Below are positions 26,924 through 45,958 of a DNA stretch of 64,000 nucleotides, one piece after another. Made by a program: the position numbers and the translations under genes. Source of the DNA: Microbacterium aoyamense (GTDB taxonomy: Bacteria; Actinomycetota; Actinomycetes; Actinomycetales; Microbacteriaceae); the NCBI RefSeq assembly GCF_023155855.1, contig NZ_JAKNUT010000001.1, positions 930,001-994,000 on the forward strand, read 5' to 3'. The notes under the pieces were generated by a model. It was not told the DNA's origin, did not search any database, and was given only the letters and a program-made list of their open reading frames with translations. Positions within the stretch are counted from its first letter, which is position 1; every line of letters starts with the position of its first letter.

Positions 26924-27478
26924 GTGCAGTTGTCCGTCCGAAAGCGCATCAGCCACCGTGAGGTCGTCTCGTCCGAGAACGGACGGCCGGTGGACGGTCT
27001 TGTGATCGCCTGGTTCGCGGTCGTCATCGAGAACCCCTTTCCCGCGGAGTACGTCGCCGACCTCGTCACCCTCGCCGATGCCGTCGGCGAAGAGCTGGGC
27101 GACCTCGTCGGCCCGCCGTGCGTTGAGCTGCTCGGGGCCGAGGTCGAAGCGTTCGGCAAGGCGGCCCTCGTCGGGATCGACGGTGAGGTCGAGCATGGCT
27201 CCGCTCTGATCCACAACCTCCGCTTCGGAAATCGCTTCCGTGCCGCGGCGGGCGGTGACACGCTGCTCCCGGCGGCTGAGAAGGTCGGACTCCCGGGACA
27301 GTCGATCGATGTGCCGATCAAGCACAAGCTCGACGCCACGACGCGATCGCATCACCAGACCGTCACACTCATGATCCCCGACGCTCCGCGCCCGCGTGAG
27401 ATCGTCGTCGCTGCCGTCGCCGCATCCGGTGGACGACCGCTGGCGCGGCTGGCCACCTTCGGAGCGGAGGTCGCGTGA
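26924..27478 (+). CDS. DUF1185/AA_synth-family protein
   Basis: 184 residues. Recognisable stretches are VIAWFAVVIENPFPAEYV, LLGAEVEAFGKAALVGIDGE, IDVPIKHKLDATTRSHHQT and IPDAPRPREIVVAAVAASGG, the conserved blocks of PF06684. Structures of this family have been described as a variant of the chorismate mutase fold, with a suggested role in amino-acid metabolism; no reaction is firmly known. First gene of the catabolic cluster. GTG 26924 is 5 nt after GGGAG. Its stop overlaps the start of the aminotransferase gene. Confidence 0.88.
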   Translation: MQLSVRKRISHREVVSSENGRPVDGLVIAWFAVVIENPFPAEYVADLVTLADAVGEELGDLVGPPCVELLGAEVEAFGKAALVGIDGEVEHGSALIHNLRFGNRFRAAAGGDTLLPAAEKVGLPGQSIDVPIKHKLDATTRSHHQTVTLMIPDAPRPREIVVAAVAASGGRPLARLATFGAEVA

Positions 27479-31584: not shown

Positions 31585-32103
31585 ATGACGGAAGAGACAT
31601 GGCAGGAGTCGATCGTGCGACTCATGAAGGAGCGGGGGGTCGCACAGGTGGCGTACGTGCCGGACGCGGGCCACTCGCACGCGATCCGCGCAGTAGAGGC
31701 CGACCCGGAGATCGAAGCCGTCGTGCTCACCACCGAGGAGGAGGGTGTCGCACTCGTGTGCGGTGCGCACCTCGGCGGCGATCGGGCGGTGCTTCTCATG
31801 CAGTCCAGCGGTGTCGGCAATTGCGTGAACATGTTCTCGCTGCTCACGGCTTGCCAGTTCCCATTCCTGACCCTCGTCACGATGCGCGGCGAGTACGCGG
31901 AGTTCCACCCCTGGCAGGTCCCGATGGGCCGCGCGGTGCCAGAAGCCTTCGAAATGATGGGCGTGAAGGTGATGCGCGCGGACAAGGCCGAGGACGTCGC
32001 CCCCACCATCGCGGCGGCGATGACGACGGCCTTCGATGCGAACGACCGCGTCGCCGTCCTCCTCGGTCAGAAACTCATCGGCGCGAAGAACTGGAACGAG
32101 TGA
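31585..32103 (+). CDS. Split ThDP-dependent decarboxylase, alpha (pyrimidine-binding) subunit
   Basis: 172 residues, corresponding to the N-terminal third of a ThDP decarboxylase. VAYVPDAGHSHAIRAVEADP and TTEEEGVALVCGAHLGGDR (with the Glu that activates the cofactor) and LLMQSSGVGNCVNMFS match the alpha chain of sulfopyruvate/phosphonopyruvate decarboxylases (ComD). ATG 31585 has GAGAGG 5 nt upstream; an ATG at 31552, overlapping the previous stop, would add 11 residues without family character. It functions only with the beta chain that follows 5 nt later. Confidence 0.88.
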   Translation: MTEETWQESIVRLMKERGVAQVAYVPDAGHSHAIRAVEADPEIEAVVLTTEEEGVALVCGAHLGGDRAVLLMQSSGVGNCVNMFSLLTACQFPFLTLVTMRGEYAEFHPWQVPMGRAVPEAFEMMGVKVMRADKAEDVAPTIAAAMTTAFDANDRVAVLLGQKLIGAKNWNE

Positions 32104-32108
32104 GCGAC

Positions 32109-32708
32109 ATGACGACGGATACTGCCGTAGAGGACCGCCTGGACCGCCGCGAGTTCGTCGCAGAACTGCTGCGCCGGACGCCGGATGCGCTTGTCGTGAC
32201 TGGACTCGGGTCGCCCGCATACGACGTGAACGCCGCGGGATACCGCGCGGAGAACTTCTTCCTCCTCGGCGCGATGGGCGGTGCGGTGCCCTGCGCGCTG
32301 GGACTCGCCATCGCCCAGCCGGAGCGGTCGGTCGTGGTGGTCACCGGCGATGGAGAGCACCTCATGAACGTCGGCGCGCTCGCCGTCGTCGGGGTCAAGA
32401 AGCCCAAGAACCTCACGATCGTCGTTCTCGACAACGGATTCTTCGCCGAGACGGGCATGCAGCCCAGCCACTCCGGCCTCGGCACGGACCTGGCCGCCAT
32501 CGCACGGGGGTTCGGGCTCGGCGACGCGACGGTCGTAGAAACGATGGATGCCGTCGACGAGGTGGCGCGCAAGATCGCCGCCCGCGACGGTGCCGCCTAC
32601 TTCCACGTGCTCATCTCCACCGCCCACCAGAAGCGATCGCTGCCCTCCCGGGACGGTGTGACGAACAAGGTGCGATTCCGGGCCGCGCTCGGATTGGAGA
32701 CCTACTGA
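32109..32708 (+). CDS. Split ThDP-dependent decarboxylase, beta (diphosphate-binding) subunit
   Basis: 199 residues. The ThDP-binding motif runs from VVTGDGEHLMNVG to VVLDNGFFAETG (GDG...N, about 30 residues). LGAMGGAVPCALGLAIAQPE is the ComE-like segment that precedes it. Together with the alpha chain it should decarboxylate a 2-oxo acid such as 3-sulfopyruvate, phosphonopyruvate or a relative to an aldehyde, with the upstream ALDH as a plausible next step. A GTG at 32100 overlapping the alpha stop is an alternative start. Confidence 0.88.
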   Translation: MTTDTAVEDRLDRREFVAELLRRTPDALVVTGLGSPAYDVNAAGYRAENFFLLGAMGGAVPCALGLAIAQPERSVVVVTGDGEHLMNVGALAVVGVKKPKNLTIVVLDNGFFAETGMQPSHSGLGTDLAAIARGFGLGDATVVETMDAVDEVARKIAARDGAAYFHVLISTAHQKRSLPSRDGVTNKVRFRAALGLETY

Positions 32709-39288: not shown

Positions 39289-40434
39289 ATGAACCAGCCC
39301 GCTCCTGTGCAGATCATCGACGTGTCCGGCTTCGCGCGTGCGCCCTTCGAGCCGATCGTCGAGGCCTTCACCCGTGCCGTGGCCGCGCAGGGCGGCGGCG
39401 GGGCGGCGCTCGCCATCAGACACGACGGTGAACTCGTCGTCGACCTGGTGGCCGGCGATTATCGCGTCGACTCTCTGCAGTTGCTCTACTCGGTGTCCAA
39501 AGCCGTGACCGCGACCGCCGCGGCCATGCTCGCGGAAGCAGGAGAACTCGATCTCGACGCTCCTCTCGCGCAGTGGTGGCCGGAGATGGCCAAGTCCTCC
39601 ACATCTTCGATCACGCCGCGGATGGTCCTGTCGCATACGTCCGGTTTGGCGTCGCTCGACCGCGAGCTCACCTACGCGCAGCTCTTGGCGCATGAGGACG
39701 ACGAGGCGATCGGCGCGCAGGAGCCGTACTGGGAGCCGGGCACCGCGCTCGGGTACCACGCCTTCACGTTCGGCACGGTCATGAACGGACTCTTCCGACG
39801 TGCCCTCGGGACCTCGGTGGGCGAAGTCGTGGAACAGCGCATCGCGCGCCCGCACGGCCTCGATCTGTGGATCGGCACCCCGGATTCCGTCTTCGATCGG
39901 ATCGAGCGGATCTCTTCGGGGCCCCGAGCCGTCAGCGCGTCTCGGGCGGCGTTCGGTGCGGCGAGCGATATCCCTCCCAGCAGCACCGCGCGCCTGGACC
40001 CGGCGCTGGACATCTACAACAGGACTTCGACGTACGCCGCCGAGATGCCGTCGCTCACGGCGGTCGGCGACGCACGATCACTCGCGGCCTTCTTCGCCGC
40101 GACCCTCGACGGCACGCTGCTGTCCGAATCCGCGCGCGACGAGATGGTCCGCCCGCGGGCGATCGGACCTGACCTCGTGCTGGGTATGCCCATGCACTAC
40201 GGCAGCGGCATGCAGCTCCCGTTCCCCCAGCTTCCTCTCCTCGGGCCGCGGTCGTACGGACATGAGGGAGCGGGCGGATCCGTCGCGTTCGCGGATGCGG
40301 AGTTCGACCTGTCGGTGGCGTGGACCACGGACGTCTACCCGTCGATGGCCGGGGCGAGTCCTGCGTTCATCGCGCTGCTCCCGACGATCCGGCACTGCTT
40401 GACCACCGATACACGAGGGGAACCGAAAAGGTGA
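39289..40434 (+). CDS. Serine hydrolase of the beta-lactamase family (esterase/amidase-like)
   Basis: 381 residues with intact catalytic parts: SxxK in LLYSVSKAVTA, HTSG in LSHTSGLASL, a Tyr motif in GYHAFTFG and a terminal HEGAGG. No signal peptide, so it acts in the cytoplasm, unlike resistance beta-lactamases or DD-peptidases. Such cytoplasmic members are esterases or amidases (EstB-like). In this cluster it likely removes an ester or amide group. It provides a contrast with the degenerate relative at 21737-23014. It overlaps the next gene by 4 nt. Confidence 0.9.
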   Translation: MNQPAPVQIIDVSGFARAPFEPIVEAFTRAVAAQGGGGAALAIRHDGELVVDLVAGDYRVDSLQLLYSVSKAVTATAAAMLAEAGELDLDAPLAQWWPEMAKSSTSSITPRMVLSHTSGLASLDRELTYAQLLAHEDDEAIGAQEPYWEPGTALGYHAFTFGTVMNGLFRRALGTSVGEVVEQRIARPHGLDLWIGTPDSVFDRIERISSGPRAVSASRAAFGAASDIPPSSTARLDPALDIYNRTSTYAAEMPSLTAVGDARSLAAFFAATLDGTLLSESARDEMVRPRAIGPDLVLGMPMHYGSGMQLPFPQLPLLGPRSYGHEGAGGSVAFADAEFDLSVAWTTDVYPSMAGASPAFIALLPTIRHCLTTDTRGEPKR

Positions 40435-42431
40435 CAGATCTGGAGTACGAGCTCGTCGAAGGCTGGGAGAAGGCGCCCGCGGGCATGCGACACGCAGATG
40501 TGAGCGGCGTCGTCGTGGGCGCGGACGACCGCGTCTACCTCCTGGCGCGACGCGATCCGGGGGTGCTCGTCTACGAGCGCGACGGGACGTTCGTGACGTC
40601 CTGGGGAGGCGACGTGCTCTCCGACAAGCCGCACGGGCTCACGATCGCGCCCGACGGGACCTTCTGGATCGTGGATGTCGCGACCCACGTCGTTCATCAC
40701 TTCAGCGCCGACGGCGAGCTCCTCCTGACGATCGGCTCGAAGGGCGTGCCCTCCGAGACGGGCTACGACGGGACTTTGGACAGCATCGCCGGCGGCGGGC
40801 CGTTCCACCTTCCGACGAACATCGCGGTCGGGTCCAACGGAGATCTGTACGTGAGCGACGGATACGGGAATTCCCGCGTGCACCGCTTCAGCCCGGCGGG
40901 CGAGCTCATCCAGTCATGGGGGGAATCCGGATCCGGTCCCGGTCAGTTCCGTCTCGTCCACGGGGTGTGCGCGACCCCCGACGGCCGCATCATCGTCGCC
41001 GACGAGGAGAACGATCGGCTGCAATTCTTCACCCTCGACGGCGAGTACCTCACCGAGTGGCACGATGTGCAGCGCCCGACCAACATCGCGCTGGACTCGT
41101 CCGGTCGCGTCTTCGTGTCCGAGCTGTGGCGACGTCCCGGAGAGCGGTCGTGGCGGCTCGGCACGTCCGATGCCGACTTCCCCGGTCGCGTGTCGGTGTT
41201 CGCGCCCGACGGCACCCTGCTCGCCCGATGGGGAGGGAATCCCGATCGTACGGCCCCGGGCAACTTCATCGCGCCGCACGACATCGCGATCGACTCCCAC
41301 GGCGACGTCTACGTCGCGGAAGTCACGTGGACGACCGCCGGCGCCCGCGGCGACGTCCCCGAGGACGCCCACACGATCCAGAAGTTCACACCACGTGCCT
41401 CTTCCATCGAGGCGCTCACCGCCAGCAACAAGAAGGAGAAACAAGTGACCACTCGACTCGTCCTCGACGTCGACACAGGAACCGACGACGCGGTGGCGAT
41501 CATGCTCGCCGCGCTTCACCCCGAGCTCGACCTCATCGCCGTCACCTCGGTGAGCGGCAATGTCGACATCGATCACACGACGGAGAACTCCCTGCGCGTG
41601 CTCGATCACGTCGGCCGCAGTGATGTGCCCGTCTACCGGGGCGCCGAGCGTCCCATCGCCCGCCCCGATCAGCCGGTCGCCCGTGACATCCGCAAGGCGC
41701 GCTTCGAGGGCGGCATCAGCCCCGTGCACGGAGAGTACCTGCCGCTGCCCGAGGCGACCTCGAAGGCGCAGTCCAAGCGCGCCCCCGAAGCACTCCTCGA
41801 CATCTTCTCCGACCCGGCGAACGAGGACGTCGTGCTCGTCGCCGTCGGGCCTCTGACGAACGTCGCGATGGCCCTGCAGCTGGATGCGAGCTTCGCCCAG
41901 AAGGTGAAGAAGCTCGTCATCATGGGCGGCGCGCACGACTGGCCGAACGTGACGCCGTCGGCGGAGTACAACTTCTGGGCCGATCCCGAGGCCGCGCAGC
42001 TGGTCCTCGCGAGCGGCATCGAGGAGATCGTCGTGGTCCCGCTCGACGCGACCCACCGCGCACTGGTCACTCTGGGCAGCTGCGCGACCATGCGGGCGTC
42101 GGGGACGCCGGCCGGCGTCGCGGCGGCGGAGATCATCGAGAAGCGCATCGTCGGCTACCGCACGGCGCAGCCCATCGACGACGACGCAGCGCCCGTCCAC
42201 GACGCGCTGTGCATCGCCTACCTCGTCGACCCCTCGGTCATCTCGGGTGGCGAGTACTACGTCGACGTCGAGACGGTGGGCACGCTCACCGTCGGGCGGT
42301 CGGTCGTGGACATCCACAACCGCATCCACGAAGGGCGCCCGACCGGTCCCAAGCCCAACGCGTTCTTCGCGTTCGGCGCCGATGCGGTGAAGTTCAGCGA
42401 GATCCTCGTTTCGACGCTGTCGAAGTCCTGA
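40431..42431 (+). CDS. NHL-type beta-propeller fused in frame to nucleoside hydrolase
   Basis: 666 codons open without a stop. Residues 1-330 are a six-bladed NHL propeller, with repeats such as DKPHGLTIAPDGTFWIVDVA, LPTNIAVGSNGDLYVSDGYG, LVHGVCATPDGRIIVADEEN and PHDIAIDSHGDVYVAEVT. Residues 339-666 are a complete nucleoside hydrolase. The joint (RASSIEALTASNKKEKQ) contains a perfect ribosome site AAGGAG at 41433-41438 followed by GTG at 41445, as between two separate genes, but no stop ends the propeller. Either a fused protein, or a fused and a free form, is made. A sequencing error or recent stop loss must be excluded. Confidence 0.8.
   Translation: MTDLEYELVEGWEKAPAGMRHADVSGVVVGADDRVYLLARRDPGVLVYERDGTFVTSWGGDVLSDKPHGLTIAPDGTFWIVDVATHVVHHFSADGELLLTIGSKGVPSETGYDGTLDSIAGGGPFHLPTNIAVGSNGDLYVSDGYGNSRVHRFSPAGELIQSWGESGSGPGQFRLVHGVCATPDGRIIVADEENDRLQFFTLDGEYLTEWHDVQRPTNIALDSSGRVFVSELWRRPGERSWRLGTSDADFPGRVSVFAPDGTLLARWGGNPDRTAPGNFIAPHDIAIDSHGDVYVAEVTWTTAGARGDVPEDAHTIQKFTPRASSIEALTASNKKEKQVTTRLVLDVDTGTDDAVAIMLAALHPELDLIAVTSVSGNVDIDHTTENSLRVLDHVGRSDVPVYRGAERPIARPDQPVARDIRKARFEGGISPVHGEYLPLPEATSKAQSKRAPEALLDIFSDPANEDVVLVAVGPLTNVAMALQLDASFAQKVKKLVIMGGAHDWPNVTPSAEYNFWADPEAAQLVLASGIEEIVVVPLDATHRALVTLGSCATMRASGTPAGVAAAEIIEKRIVGYRTAQPIDDDAAPVHDALCIAYLVDPSVISGGEYYVDVETVGTLTVGRSVVDIHNRIHEGRPTGPKPNAFFAFGADAVKFSEILVSTLSKS
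41445..42431 (+). CDS. Nucleoside hydrolase (internal start of the fused frame)
   Basis: 328 residues from GTG 41445, preceded by AAGGAG at 6 nt. The first strand carries the calcium-binding DVDTGTDDA (Asp 8, 10, 14, 15), with later segments VAVGPLTNVAMALQ, KKLVIMGGAHDW and NFWADPEAAQLVL that bind Ca2+ and ribose, and VHDALCIAYLVDPS with the conserved His-Asp. It splits N-glycosidic bonds of nucleosides to free base and ribose. It is the key hint that the cluster handles a nucleoside or similar N-glycoside; the ribokinase encoded at 45068 would phosphorylate the sugar. Family length is matched exactly from this start. Confidence 0.9.
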   Translation: MTTRLVLDVDTGTDDAVAIMLAALHPELDLIAVTSVSGNVDIDHTTENSLRVLDHVGRSDVPVYRGAERPIARPDQPVARDIRKARFEGGISPVHGEYLPLPEATSKAQSKRAPEALLDIFSDPANEDVVLVAVGPLTNVAMALQLDASFAQKVKKLVIMGGAHDWPNVTPSAEYNFWADPEAAQLVLASGIEEIVVVPLDATHRALVTLGSCATMRASGTPAGVAAAEIIEKRIVGYRTAQPIDDDAAPVHDALCIAYLVDPSVISGGEYYVDVETVGTLTVGRSVVDIHNRIHEGRPTGPKPNAFFAFGADAVKFSEILVSTLSKS

Positions 42432-42523: not shown

Positions 42524-44185
42524 ATGATGGCGGACCTCCCGCTCACCCTCGCCGACGCGGCCGCCGGGCTTCGTTCCAGAGCGTTCAGCAGCGTCGAGCT
42601 CACGACGGCGCTGCGGGCGCGCGCCGATGAGTTCGACAGTGTGCTCGGCAGTTATGTCGCCCGCTTCGACGAGTCGGCGCTGCGAGCTGCCGCTCAGGCG
42701 GACGCGGACTTCGCGAGCGGCATCGATCGCGGGCCGCTGCAGGGCATACCGATCGGTGTGAAGGATCTCCTGGCTGCCTCCGAGGGGCCGACGACCGCCA
42801 ACAGCATCGTCCTCGATCCCGCATGGGGTGCGGGCACGGACGCGCCCGTCGTCCGCCGGCTCCGACACGCGGGGGCGGTCCTCACGGGCAAGACCTCGAC
42901 GTACGAGTTCGCGATGTCGCCGCCGCATCCCTCCAGTCCCTTCCCGACCGCCCGCAACCCCTGGGATCTGAGCCGCTCACCCGGCGGCTCGAGCTCCGGG
43001 AGCGCGAGTGGTGTCGCGGCGGGGTTCTTCCTCGCGGCGCTGGGCACCGACACGGGTGGAAGCATCCGCGGGCCGGCAGCATGGACGGGCATCACCGGGC
43101 TCAAGCCGACCTTCGGTCTCGTGCCGAAGTCGGGGTGCGTGCCGCTGGCGCAGAGCCTCGACCACGTCGGTCCGATGGCGCCCAGTGCGCAGGATTGCGC
43201 GCTCGTGCTCCAGGTGATCGCCGGGCATCACGCGAGCGACGAGTCGAGCGCGAGGCGGCCGGTGGATCGCTTCGCGGTCGATCCGCACCGCGACCTGACG
43301 GGAATGCGCATCGGCGTTGTCCGGGAGCATCACTTCCCCGAGAATTCCGATCCGGCGGCCGAGCCGGCGTATCGGGACGCTCTCGCCAGACTCGAGGAGC
43401 GGGGGGCTGTTCTGGTCGACGTCGCGCTCCCGCGCTACCGGGAGGCGGTCGCTTCGGTGTGGATCATGGTCTCGGGGGACGCCCTCGCGTACCACCTCGA
43501 CGACCTTCGTAGCCGGTGGGACGACTTCCTCCCGACGACGCGCCTGAACGTCGCGACAGGAGCGCTGATCTCGGGCGCGGACATGGTCCAGGCGGCCCGC
43601 GCGCGTCGGATCGCCCAACTCGAGCTGGCAGACCTGTTCCGGCACGTCGACATCATCGCCACGCCGACGGCGACGATCCCGGCGGCGCCGCTCGCCGACC
43701 TCATGGTGCCCGGCATCGAGCGCGGCCTGGGCGGCGGTGTCTTCACCCCCTACTGGAACGCCGTCGGCGTTCCGACCATCGCGGTGCCGATGGGAGCGAA
43801 CGCGGAAGGACTGCCGCTCTCGATCCAGCTCGCGGCACCGGCCTTCGCGGACCGACTCCTCCTCGACGTCGCCGCCGCCTACCAGCGCGACACCGACTGG
43901 CACCTGCGACGACCCGAGTTCGGCGACTCCGGCGTCGGCGCCTCCGGGCCGGCCCCGACGCGTGACCTCGCAGACCTCCAGCAGGTGCGGACGCTGCTCG
44001 CCGCGTCGGGGATCCATCCGCCGGAGGACGACATCGAGACTCTCGCGGACGCCTACGCCCCGCGGCGTGAGATGGTCGAGTGGCTCTATGCCCTTGCGGA
44101 GGCACGGTACGGCACCACTAGCCTGATCAACGAGGTCGCTCCCGAGCGTGTGTCGTGGTCCGATCCTGAAGGAGACGAGAGATGA
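42524..44185 (+). CDS. Amidase-signature family hydrolase
   Basis: 553 residues, on the long side for the family because of a C-terminal extension (about 485-553). The catalytic triad is visible: Lys in GIPIGVKDLL, cis-Ser in RSPGGSSSGSASG and nucleophile Ser in GTDTGGSIRGPAAW. The family cleaves amides, carbamoyl or allophanate bonds. In this cluster it would act on the nitrogenous part of the substrate together with the M20 carbamoylase. Start ATG 42524 (ATG 42527 next) is 4 nt after TGGAGA. It overlaps the kinase gene downstream by 4 nt. Confidence 0.9.
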   Translation: MMADLPLTLADAAAGLRSRAFSSVELTTALRARADEFDSVLGSYVARFDESALRAAAQADADFASGIDRGPLQGIPIGVKDLLAASEGPTTANSIVLDPAWGAGTDAPVVRRLRHAGAVLTGKTSTYEFAMSPPHPSSPFPTARNPWDLSRSPGGSSSGSASGVAAGFFLAALGTDTGGSIRGPAAWTGITGLKPTFGLVPKSGCVPLAQSLDHVGPMAPSAQDCALVLQVIAGHHASDESSARRPVDRFAVDPHRDLTGMRIGVVREHHFPENSDPAAEPAYRDALARLEERGAVLVDVALPRYREAVASVWIMVSGDALAYHLDDLRSRWDDFLPTTRLNVATGALISGADMVQAARARRIAQLELADLFRHVDIIATPTATIPAAPLADLMVPGIERGLGGGVFTPYWNAVGVPTIAVPMGANAEGLPLSIQLAAPAFADRLLLDVAAAYQRDTDWHLRRPEFGDSGVGASGPAPTRDLADLQQVRTLLAASGIHPPEDDIETLADAYAPRREMVEWLYALAEARYGTTSLINEVAPERVSWSDPEGDER

Positions 44186-45066
44186 GCCCGGCGCCCCGAG
44201 CGAGTCGCGAGCCCTCGCTCCAGGTGCTCGGTGAGATCAACGTCGACCTCGTGGCGCGTGTGGAGCGACCCCCACAGCCGGGGGAGATGGTCGTCGACGG
44301 GCAACTCACGCGCGTGCCGGGTGGAAAGGGCGCCAACCAGGCTGCCGTCGCCGCCCGTCTCGGCGCGAGGGTGCTGATGATCGGAGCGGTCGGCCGCGAC
44401 GCGACCGGGATGGAGATGCGCCGTGCCCTCGAGCGCGACGGCGTCTCGACCGCGGCCGTGCAGGACACGTCCGAGGCGACGGGCACCGCGTTCATCATCG
44501 TCGACTCTGCCGGCGACTCGACGCTCGTCGTCAGTCGTGGCGCGAACGAGGCCATCGAAGCGGGGCGACTCTCGGTCGATCCGCACGCCGCGCTTCTCGC
44601 GCATCTCGACGTCGGTGCGTTCGTCGTGGAGCGCGCCGCCGCGCGCACCGACGGCCTCGTCGTGCTCGACTGCTCCACTCCGGCCGACATCTCCTCGGCG
44701 CTGCTGGACCGCGCGGATGTGATCGTCACCCGCACCTCGTGTCTCGAGCACCTGCCCATGGGCGACCGCGGCACCCTCGTCGCCGGCATCGTCGACGGTG
44801 GCGGCGCCGTGCTCCGCCGCGGCGAGAACGAGATCGCCCGCGTGGATGCCCGGGTGTTCGATGGGCCGAACCCCGTAGGAGCAAGGGATGCTTTCTCCGC
44901 CGCTCTCACGATCGGCTTCCTCCGTGGATGGAGCGAAGACGAGGTGCTGCACGCAGCATGCGCGGTGGCCGCGGCCGCGGTCGCCGACCGCGGCTCGCGT
45001 CCTCAACTGGATGGGCTCGACGCTTATCGGAGCGGGGTGGCGGCCATCGCCGACGGAGGCCGGTGA
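44182..45066 (+). CDS. PfkB-family sugar kinase with an altered catalytic loop
   Basis: 294 residues. N-terminal signature LQVLGEINVDLVARV, substrate loop VPGGKGANQAAVAARLGA and two-strand lid are normal. The C-terminal signature, normally DTTGAGD, reads NPVGARDAF: the catalytic Asp is kept but the second Gly of GAGD is Arg, and the preceding Asp-Thr-Thr is lost. Nearby codons (GTA GGA GCA AGG GAT GCT) are rare for this genome. Probably impaired or with a changed acceptor, possibly a regulatory partner of the kinase encoded next. ATG 44182 overlaps the amidase stop. Confidence 0.85.
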   Translation: MSPAPRASREPSLQVLGEINVDLVARVERPPQPGEMVVDGQLTRVPGGKGANQAAVAARLGARVLMIGAVGRDATGMEMRRALERDGVSTAAVQDTSEATGTAFIIVDSAGDSTLVVSRGANEAIEAGRLSVDPHAALLAHLDVGAFVVERAAARTDGLVVLDCSTPADISSALLDRADVIVTRTSCLEHLPMGDRGTLVAGIVDGGGAVLRRGENEIARVDARVFDGPNPVGARDAFSAALTIGFLRGWSEDEVLHAACAVAAAAVADRGSRPQLDGLDAYRSGVAAIADGGR

Positions 45067-45067
45067 C

Positions 45068-45958
45068 ATGAGCTCGATCCTCGTCCTCGGCAGCGCCAAC
45101 CTCGATCTCGTCGTGCGACAGCCGCGGATCGCCCGTCCGGGCGAGACCATGTTCGGCACCGCGTTCTCGACCGTGCCCGGAGGCAAGGGCCTCAATCAGG
45201 CAGTGGCCGCCGCCCGCGCCGGAGCCGACGTCGGCTTTCTCGGCGCCGTAGGCGATGACGAGTTCGGTCGCAGACTGCGGACCCAGCTCGAGACCGACGG
45301 CATCGACACGACCGGCCTCGCCACGGTCGACCAGCCCACGGGGACGGCGCACATCGCCGTCACCGACGACGGGGAGAACTCCATCGTCGTCGTGTCCGGG
45401 GCCAACCACGTGCAGGTCGCACTCGACGACACCATGCGCTCGGCGATCGAGGGGGCGCGAACGCTCGTCCTGCAGCTCGAGCGTCCCGTGTCGCTCGTCG
45501 CGGAGGCGCTCGCCTACGCGCAAGCGCACGGCGTGAGGACCGTGCTCACCCCCGCCCCGGTGGCACCTCTCCCGTCCGACCTCCTGGCTCTCGTCACCGT
45601 TCTCGTGCCCAACGCGCGGGAGGCATGCGAACTCGCCGGCGTGGACGACGAATTCGCGGCGGCGCGCATCCTCGGCGAGCAGGGCTCCACCGTGATCATC
45701 ACGCGCGGATCCCGAGGTGTCCTCGTGCTCGAACCCGGCGGGGAACCGCGGGTTCTCCCCGCCGTCGTCGTCGAGCCGGTCGACACGACGGGTGCCGGCG
45801 ACACCTTCACCGGCGCACTGTGCGCGTGGCTCGCGGAGGACGCCTCGCTCGACGATGCGATCCGTGCCGGTCAGGTCGCCGCGGCGATCTCTGTCACACG
45901 GCCGGGCGCGACCAGCGCGATGCCGGGCCGCAGCGAGATCCTCGCCGCCCTCGGCTGA
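45068..45958 (+). CDS. Ribokinase-like PfkB sugar kinase
   Basis: 296 residues. Complete PfkB signatures: VLGSANLDLVVRQPRIARPG, VPGGKGLNQAVAAARAGADV and EPVDTTGAGDTFTGAL with the catalytic Asp. The pattern is that of ribokinase. With the nucleoside hydrolase it gives ribose release and ribose-5-phosphate for central metabolism. Last gene of the plus-strand cluster; it starts two bases after the previous stop. A strong terminator follows. Confidence 0.92.
   Translation: MSSILVLGSANLDLVVRQPRIARPGETMFGTAFSTVPGGKGLNQAVAAARAGADVGFLGAVGDDEFGRRLRTQLETDGIDTTGLATVDQPTGTAHIAVTDDGENSIVVVSGANHVQVALDDTMRSAIEGARTLVLQLERPVSLVAEALAYAQAHGVRTVLTPAPVAPLPSDLLALVTVLVPNAREACELAGVDDEFAAARILGEQGSTVIITRGSRGVLVLEPGGEPRVLPAVVVEPVDTTGAGDTFTGALCAWLAEDASLDDAIRAGQVAAAISVTRPGATSAMPGRSEILAALG

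Follow-up and report, generated by a model that had tools for sequence, protein, structure and literature searches.

A single open reading frame in the window, the 64,000-nucleotide stretch of Microbacterium aoyamense DNA that was analysed, runs from a GTG at 40431 to a TGA at 42429–42431 (666 codons) and encodes a protein that begins with a six-bladed NHL propeller and ends with a whole group I nucleoside hydrolase, about 16 linker residues lying between the two. The start codon at 40431 shares the sequence GTGA with the TGA of the preceding gene (39289–40434). The initial annotation had described a stop-free propeller joined in frame to a hydrolase, which the open frame 40431–42431 confirms. 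It had further read the gene as a pair of genes whose intervening stop had disappeared, and this is the best-supported reading, since both halves occur free elsewhere with fitting borders and the joint still resembles a ribosome site. The explanation we favour, with somewhat better than even confidence, is a recent stop-loss fusion of two genes added to a catabolic operon, in which a surviving internal start yields free hydrolase too. The parts of the fused gene are as follows.

40431..42431, + strand: fused gene, 666 aa, computed mass about 71.3 kDa
40431..41393, + strand: NHL propeller part, residues 1–321, from Pfam and the structure model
41397..41444, + strand: joint, residues 323–338 (ASSIEALTASNKKEKQ), of low model confidence, with ribosome-site sequence in its last codons
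41433..41438, + strand: AAGGAG, Shine-Dalgarno-like, 6 nt before GTG 41445 and unpaired in the predicted RNA fold
41445..42431, + strand: nucleoside hydrolase (PF01156), residues 339–666, with its own GTG; predicted free product of 328 aa, computed mass about 34.9 kDa

Pfam analysis of the fused protein detected NHL repeats followed by IU_nuc_hydro (PF01156, residues 343–656). The AAGGAG reported 6 nt upstream of a GTG in the joint was read directly, as AAGGAG (41433–41438), AAACAA and GTG (41445–41447). The propeller frame has homology behind it to about nucleotide 41387, and the hydrolase frame has it from 41445 onwards; any missing stop or frameshift would therefore fall in the intervening 57 nt.

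The hydrolase half had been claimed to be full-length and to carry the motif DVDTGTDD. Both points held, the motif lying at residues 346–353 and the Pfam match spanning the domain. The four aspartates of the DxDxxxDD Ca2+ fingerprint on the first strand (D346, D348, D352 and D353) are invariant in 20 aligned sequences, and PVHDAL at 588–593 provides the pair H590–D591, D591 being likewise invariant in the 20. In group I nucleoside hydrolases a His precedes the last Ca2+-binding Asp, a rule given in section 2.3.1 of PMC8910321, and a His, not Trp or Cys, directly precedes this Asp in the fused protein. Having kept the fingerprint and the His–Asp pair, the hydrolase half is probably a working enzyme of group I. 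The fold matches the crystal structures of Escherichia coli YeiK/RihB (Z 43.3, 303 residues aligned, 1.6 Å), the alignment beginning at fused residue 338–340; the model of the whole fusion was that of a monomer. Free hydrolases of Mesorhizobium, Agrobacterium and genome G080 (51–53% identity) begin at the residue encoded by GTG 41445. The fused protein scored below the cut-off of all four NCBIfam hydrolase models listed (for example, 208.3 bits of 382 for RihC), and the Pfam and NCBIfam searches of the protein named no substrate. In G080, seven hydrolase matches follow one another on one strand over about 11 kb (L122 4668–15344, contig 2), an unusual run that includes one of the 51–53% relatives.

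The propeller was modelled separately, from single sequence, because matches to the hydrolase domain took up all places in the fold search with the whole model. With this model, the first Foldseek hit was PAL (3FVZ, 3.8e-19). By phmmer, PAL (7.5e-24) ranked behind nine TRIM/Thin-type NHL sequences, and in a second structural alignment it was placed ninth (Z 31.4, 283 residues aligned, 3.4 Å), with TRIM/Thin-type NHL domains scoring higher. A PAL-type chemistry is a candidate for the propeller. Identity between the propeller and 3FVZ is only 24–29%; residues H68, H177, H283, R40 and Y145 are invariant in six aligned propeller sequences. PMC12508155 describes a protein that is not homologous to PAL and carries out a PAL-like reaction.

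Free relatives of the propeller were found on rhizobial plasmids (39–41% identity for the two best) and in actinobacteria, including one genome of the same genus (33–37%). Seven uncut free propellers were aligned. In four, the last K-F/W/L is retained and the protein runs on for another 4, 5, 8 and 11 residues; the window propeller has 19 residues from the last K-F/W/L to the GTG. For the other three (L126, L119 and L169) the aligned sequence finishes sooner and is uninformative on the tail. The nearest propeller relative among the matches listed (L167 1–948, G1235 contig 69) is 54% identical, and its contig runs out at the position matching residue 312, a little short of the joint.

The propeller–hydrolase architecture was not found elsewhere in the genomes and plasmids searched; stop-loss fusion and internal initiation are already known kinds of event. 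Searches with the whole protein matched 63 of 98, 156 of 296, 3 of 4 and 11 of 30 genomes (overlapping samples, those of 98 and 296 including the window's own genome). Own genome aside, the matches listed contained no fused relative, each covering one domain or the other. Three matches that extend into the propeller part were followed up, those of G083 (residues 233–636), G090 (302–655) and G464 (286–631), and the best propeller match in their open frames had an E-value of 0.2 or worse. Further matches, such as those of G022, G563, G1231, G1260, G1276 and G1181, begin at residues 294–314. Propeller-only searches matched 28 of 396, 85 of 394, 20 of 366 and 5 of 17 genomes, largely through weak NHL-repeat matches, the first three counts including the own genome; the 20 of 366 are within the genus, where the best other match was 37% identical. 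At the loci extracted from these searches, no hydrolase was seen adjoining a propeller. Among 427 plasmid records, no single place covered 80% of the whole-protein query, and a scan of genome contigs with the whole protein gave 27 loci with no match before residue 318, a scan by which free propellers were hardly sought. Both domains occurred together in no locus examined besides the window's own (flanks of 1.5 kb on each side, longer loci reaching about 10 kb). Among the papers listed in searches of the open PMC literature, none was on such a fusion by its title, which is not a claim of its absence from print.

The ribosome site was compared with 217 other in-frame ATG, GTG or TTG codons that lie within 12 genes with Pfam support in the window. 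Not one of the 217 was preceded by any of the four exact Shine-Dalgarno hexamers tested. The duplex energy at GTG 41445 (−9.7 kcal/mol) was equalled at 3 of them, so strength alone is no proof of use; an earlier version of the test, including frames without Pfam support, gave 4 of 215 at this energy with 41445 itself counted. The starts of the same 12 genes ranged from +0.7 to −11.3 kcal/mol, with a hexamer in two, and only one, at 27475 (−11.3), was stronger than 41445, which is on par with the nearby starts at 44182 (−9.5) and 45068 (−9.7). The 15 bases 5′ of GTG 41445 are 62% unpaired versus a mean of 35% for the internal starts, 5 of the 217 being equally open. The 21-mer before this GTG contains 13 A and is the sole such window, and hence the most A-rich, among 13,905 in the 12 genes. 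Lysine accounts for 1.6% of codons in these genes, yet for three of the last five linker residues, spelled AAGAAGGAGAAACAA.

The joint also contains codons that are rare in the window (ACA, CCA, TCT, AAA and CAA), and its third-position G+C (0.70–0.75) lies at the low end of the 0.75–0.95 of the surroundings. These atypical codons would suit an old gene tail plus ribosome site, and they do not vouch for the frame. The absence of a stop over 19 codons means little, as 7,259 of 8,990 off-frame windows of this length (81%) are also stop-free. What stands out is a ribosome-site-like sequence exactly at the domain border. Genes that give two products carry a ribosome site and a start in the same frame where two domains meet; the sequence shows this trait, and the start signal at 41445 looks real on this reading of it.

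The neighbouring genes, which we infer to form one operon with the fused gene, are the following.

39289..40434, + strand: serine-hydrolase/class C beta-lactamase-like esterase gene (Pfam), directly upstream, with a 4-nt TGA/GTG overlap with the fused gene
42524..44185, + strand: amidase gene (PF01425), downstream, start picked by eye
44182..45066, + strand: ribokinase-like PfkB gene, first of two (Pfam, NCBIfam)
45068..45958, + strand: ribokinase-like PfkB gene, second of two (TIGR02152, 296.2 bits, cut-off 299.65)

A scan for sigma-70-like promoters found none between 40000 and 43000, although such scans miss other types. The amidase, with matches in all 98 of 98 relatives, is too general to define an island. 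The two ribokinase-like genes (44182–45958) are different genes in tandem; the first, at 127.2 of 299.65 bits, is far under the ribokinase cut-off and may act on another sugar. Elsewhere in the window, the only Pfam match in the frame at 31599–32705 is to the C-terminal domain of thiamine-diphosphate enzymes (PF02775), and the frame is possibly half of a split enzyme.

The history of the locus was approached through contig 96 of genome G512 (9,361 bases, beginning inside an isomerase gene), which carries counterparts of the two genes that precede the fused gene in the window, the isomerase (78%) and then the esterase (60%), followed by a frame on the opposite strand. Neither propeller nor hydrolase was found on this contig; G512 has a hydrolase at 38% on a different one. 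With isomerase and esterase present but not the pair, the propeller and hydrolase look like an addition to the operon. It looks as if the pair was added first and fused later, an order drawn from one other genome. The isomerase–esterase pair is conserved at this locus (L202 1–1810) in another family of the same class, and such conservation suggests a shared catabolic pathway.

Under the favoured stop-loss reading, the catabolic operon would have gained two genes head to tail in this lineage, one for a PAL-like propeller and one for a group I nucleoside hydrolase, and the stop between them would later have been lost by one small mutation. Changing one base would turn several of the joint codons into stops, and the +1 frame holds a TGA that overlaps GTG 41445, as the TGA of the upstream gene overlaps GTG 40431; a substitution or a one-base change would therefore suffice. 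Ribosomes starting at GTG 40431 would make the 71 kDa fusion, while initiation at GTG 41445, from the retained ribosome site, would add a certain amount of free 35 kDa hydrolase. Production of both proteins is plausible from the sequence, and ribosomes arriving through the propeller could hinder initiation within the frame. The hydrolase domain would cleave its presumed substrate, a riboside, and the two downstream ribokinase-like enzymes would take up the ribose.

The continuous frame would also fit a settled fusion, existing in the 71 kDa form only, in which the A-rich joint merely connects the domains as a flexible stretch rich in lysine and takes no part in initiation; in the model, a helix of low confidence links the two folded domains. 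The end of the linker, with its lysines and the rare codons AAA and CAA, is more in keeping with a ribosome site, however, and no fused relative was found to show selection on the joint as a linker; we regard this alternative as unlikely. An assembly or sequencing error, by which two ordinary overlapping or adjacent genes were joined through one wrong base, is about as unlikely. It draws on the fusion being seen in one genome only and on the joint itself, which minus one base would end in a TGA overlapping GTG 41445, the common 4-nt overlap seen at the gene's own start (an arrangement informed by passages of PMC3711429 and PMC10666635), and whose rare codons and low third-position G+C give the frame no warrant. 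Against it, the genome scored 100% complete with 0.02 contamination, and 41389–41444 holds no homopolymer longer than 3, which makes the commonest kind of indel error unlikely.

It is also conceivable, but improbable, that the cell needs the fusion as well as the free hydrolase, the two kinds of subunit combining in a mixed oligomer. In the endolysin LysIME-EF1, according to passages of PMC7098653, an internal AAGGAGA allows the C-terminal domain to be made separately, and these free copies form one assembly with the full-length protein. In crystals, group I hydrolases are D2 tetramers, and an added domain blocks oligomerisation of Sde_0182 (both from sections of PMC8910321), a reason why free subunits might help. 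No relative with an internal site was found, though, and the mixed oligomer is predicted from sequence and analogy. A stronger proposal, which we hold to be less probable still, is that self-supplied untagged hydrolase in mixed tetramers makes the stop-loss fusion tolerable or even useful, and that a modified riboside is processed by the propeller, as a PAL-like lyase, ahead of the hydrolase.

If real, the stop-loss fusion is a snapshot of two operon genes becoming one protein, with the old start signal readable as linker codons, and it would make it possible to test directly whether a new fusion of oligomeric enzymes is buffered by an internal start left over from the separate genes. PAL-like propellers are found among catabolic genes in the plasmid loci examined, and the domain pair hints that their substrates may be those of riboside hydrolases.

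Each half of the protein resembles known systems. The hydrolase shares with the group I enzymes RihA, RihB and RihC of E. coli the whole catalytic domain, the DxDxxxDD motif, the His before the last Asp and the fold; the solved nucleoside hydrolases among the matches listed align to this half only. PAL-family propellers (3FVZ and the free rhizobial proteins annotated as PAL family) have the six-bladed NHL fold in common with the window propeller, which, unlike them, is fused to a hydrolase and for which lyase activity is putative. In Sde_0182, a multidomain protein of Saccharophagus degradans described in sections of PMC8910321, a nucleoside-hydrolase-like domain likewise follows other domains in one chain, but its partner domains are different and the hydrolase domain is inactive, whereas the window hydrolase keeps the catalytic motifs. 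A parallel for the joint is LysIME-EF1, one gene with two products, in which AAGGAGA also precedes a start that is in frame and lies where one domain gives way to the next; there, as reported in PMC7098653, the site was proven by mutation and occurs in 36 related sequences, whereas the site in the window is a prediction from one genome.
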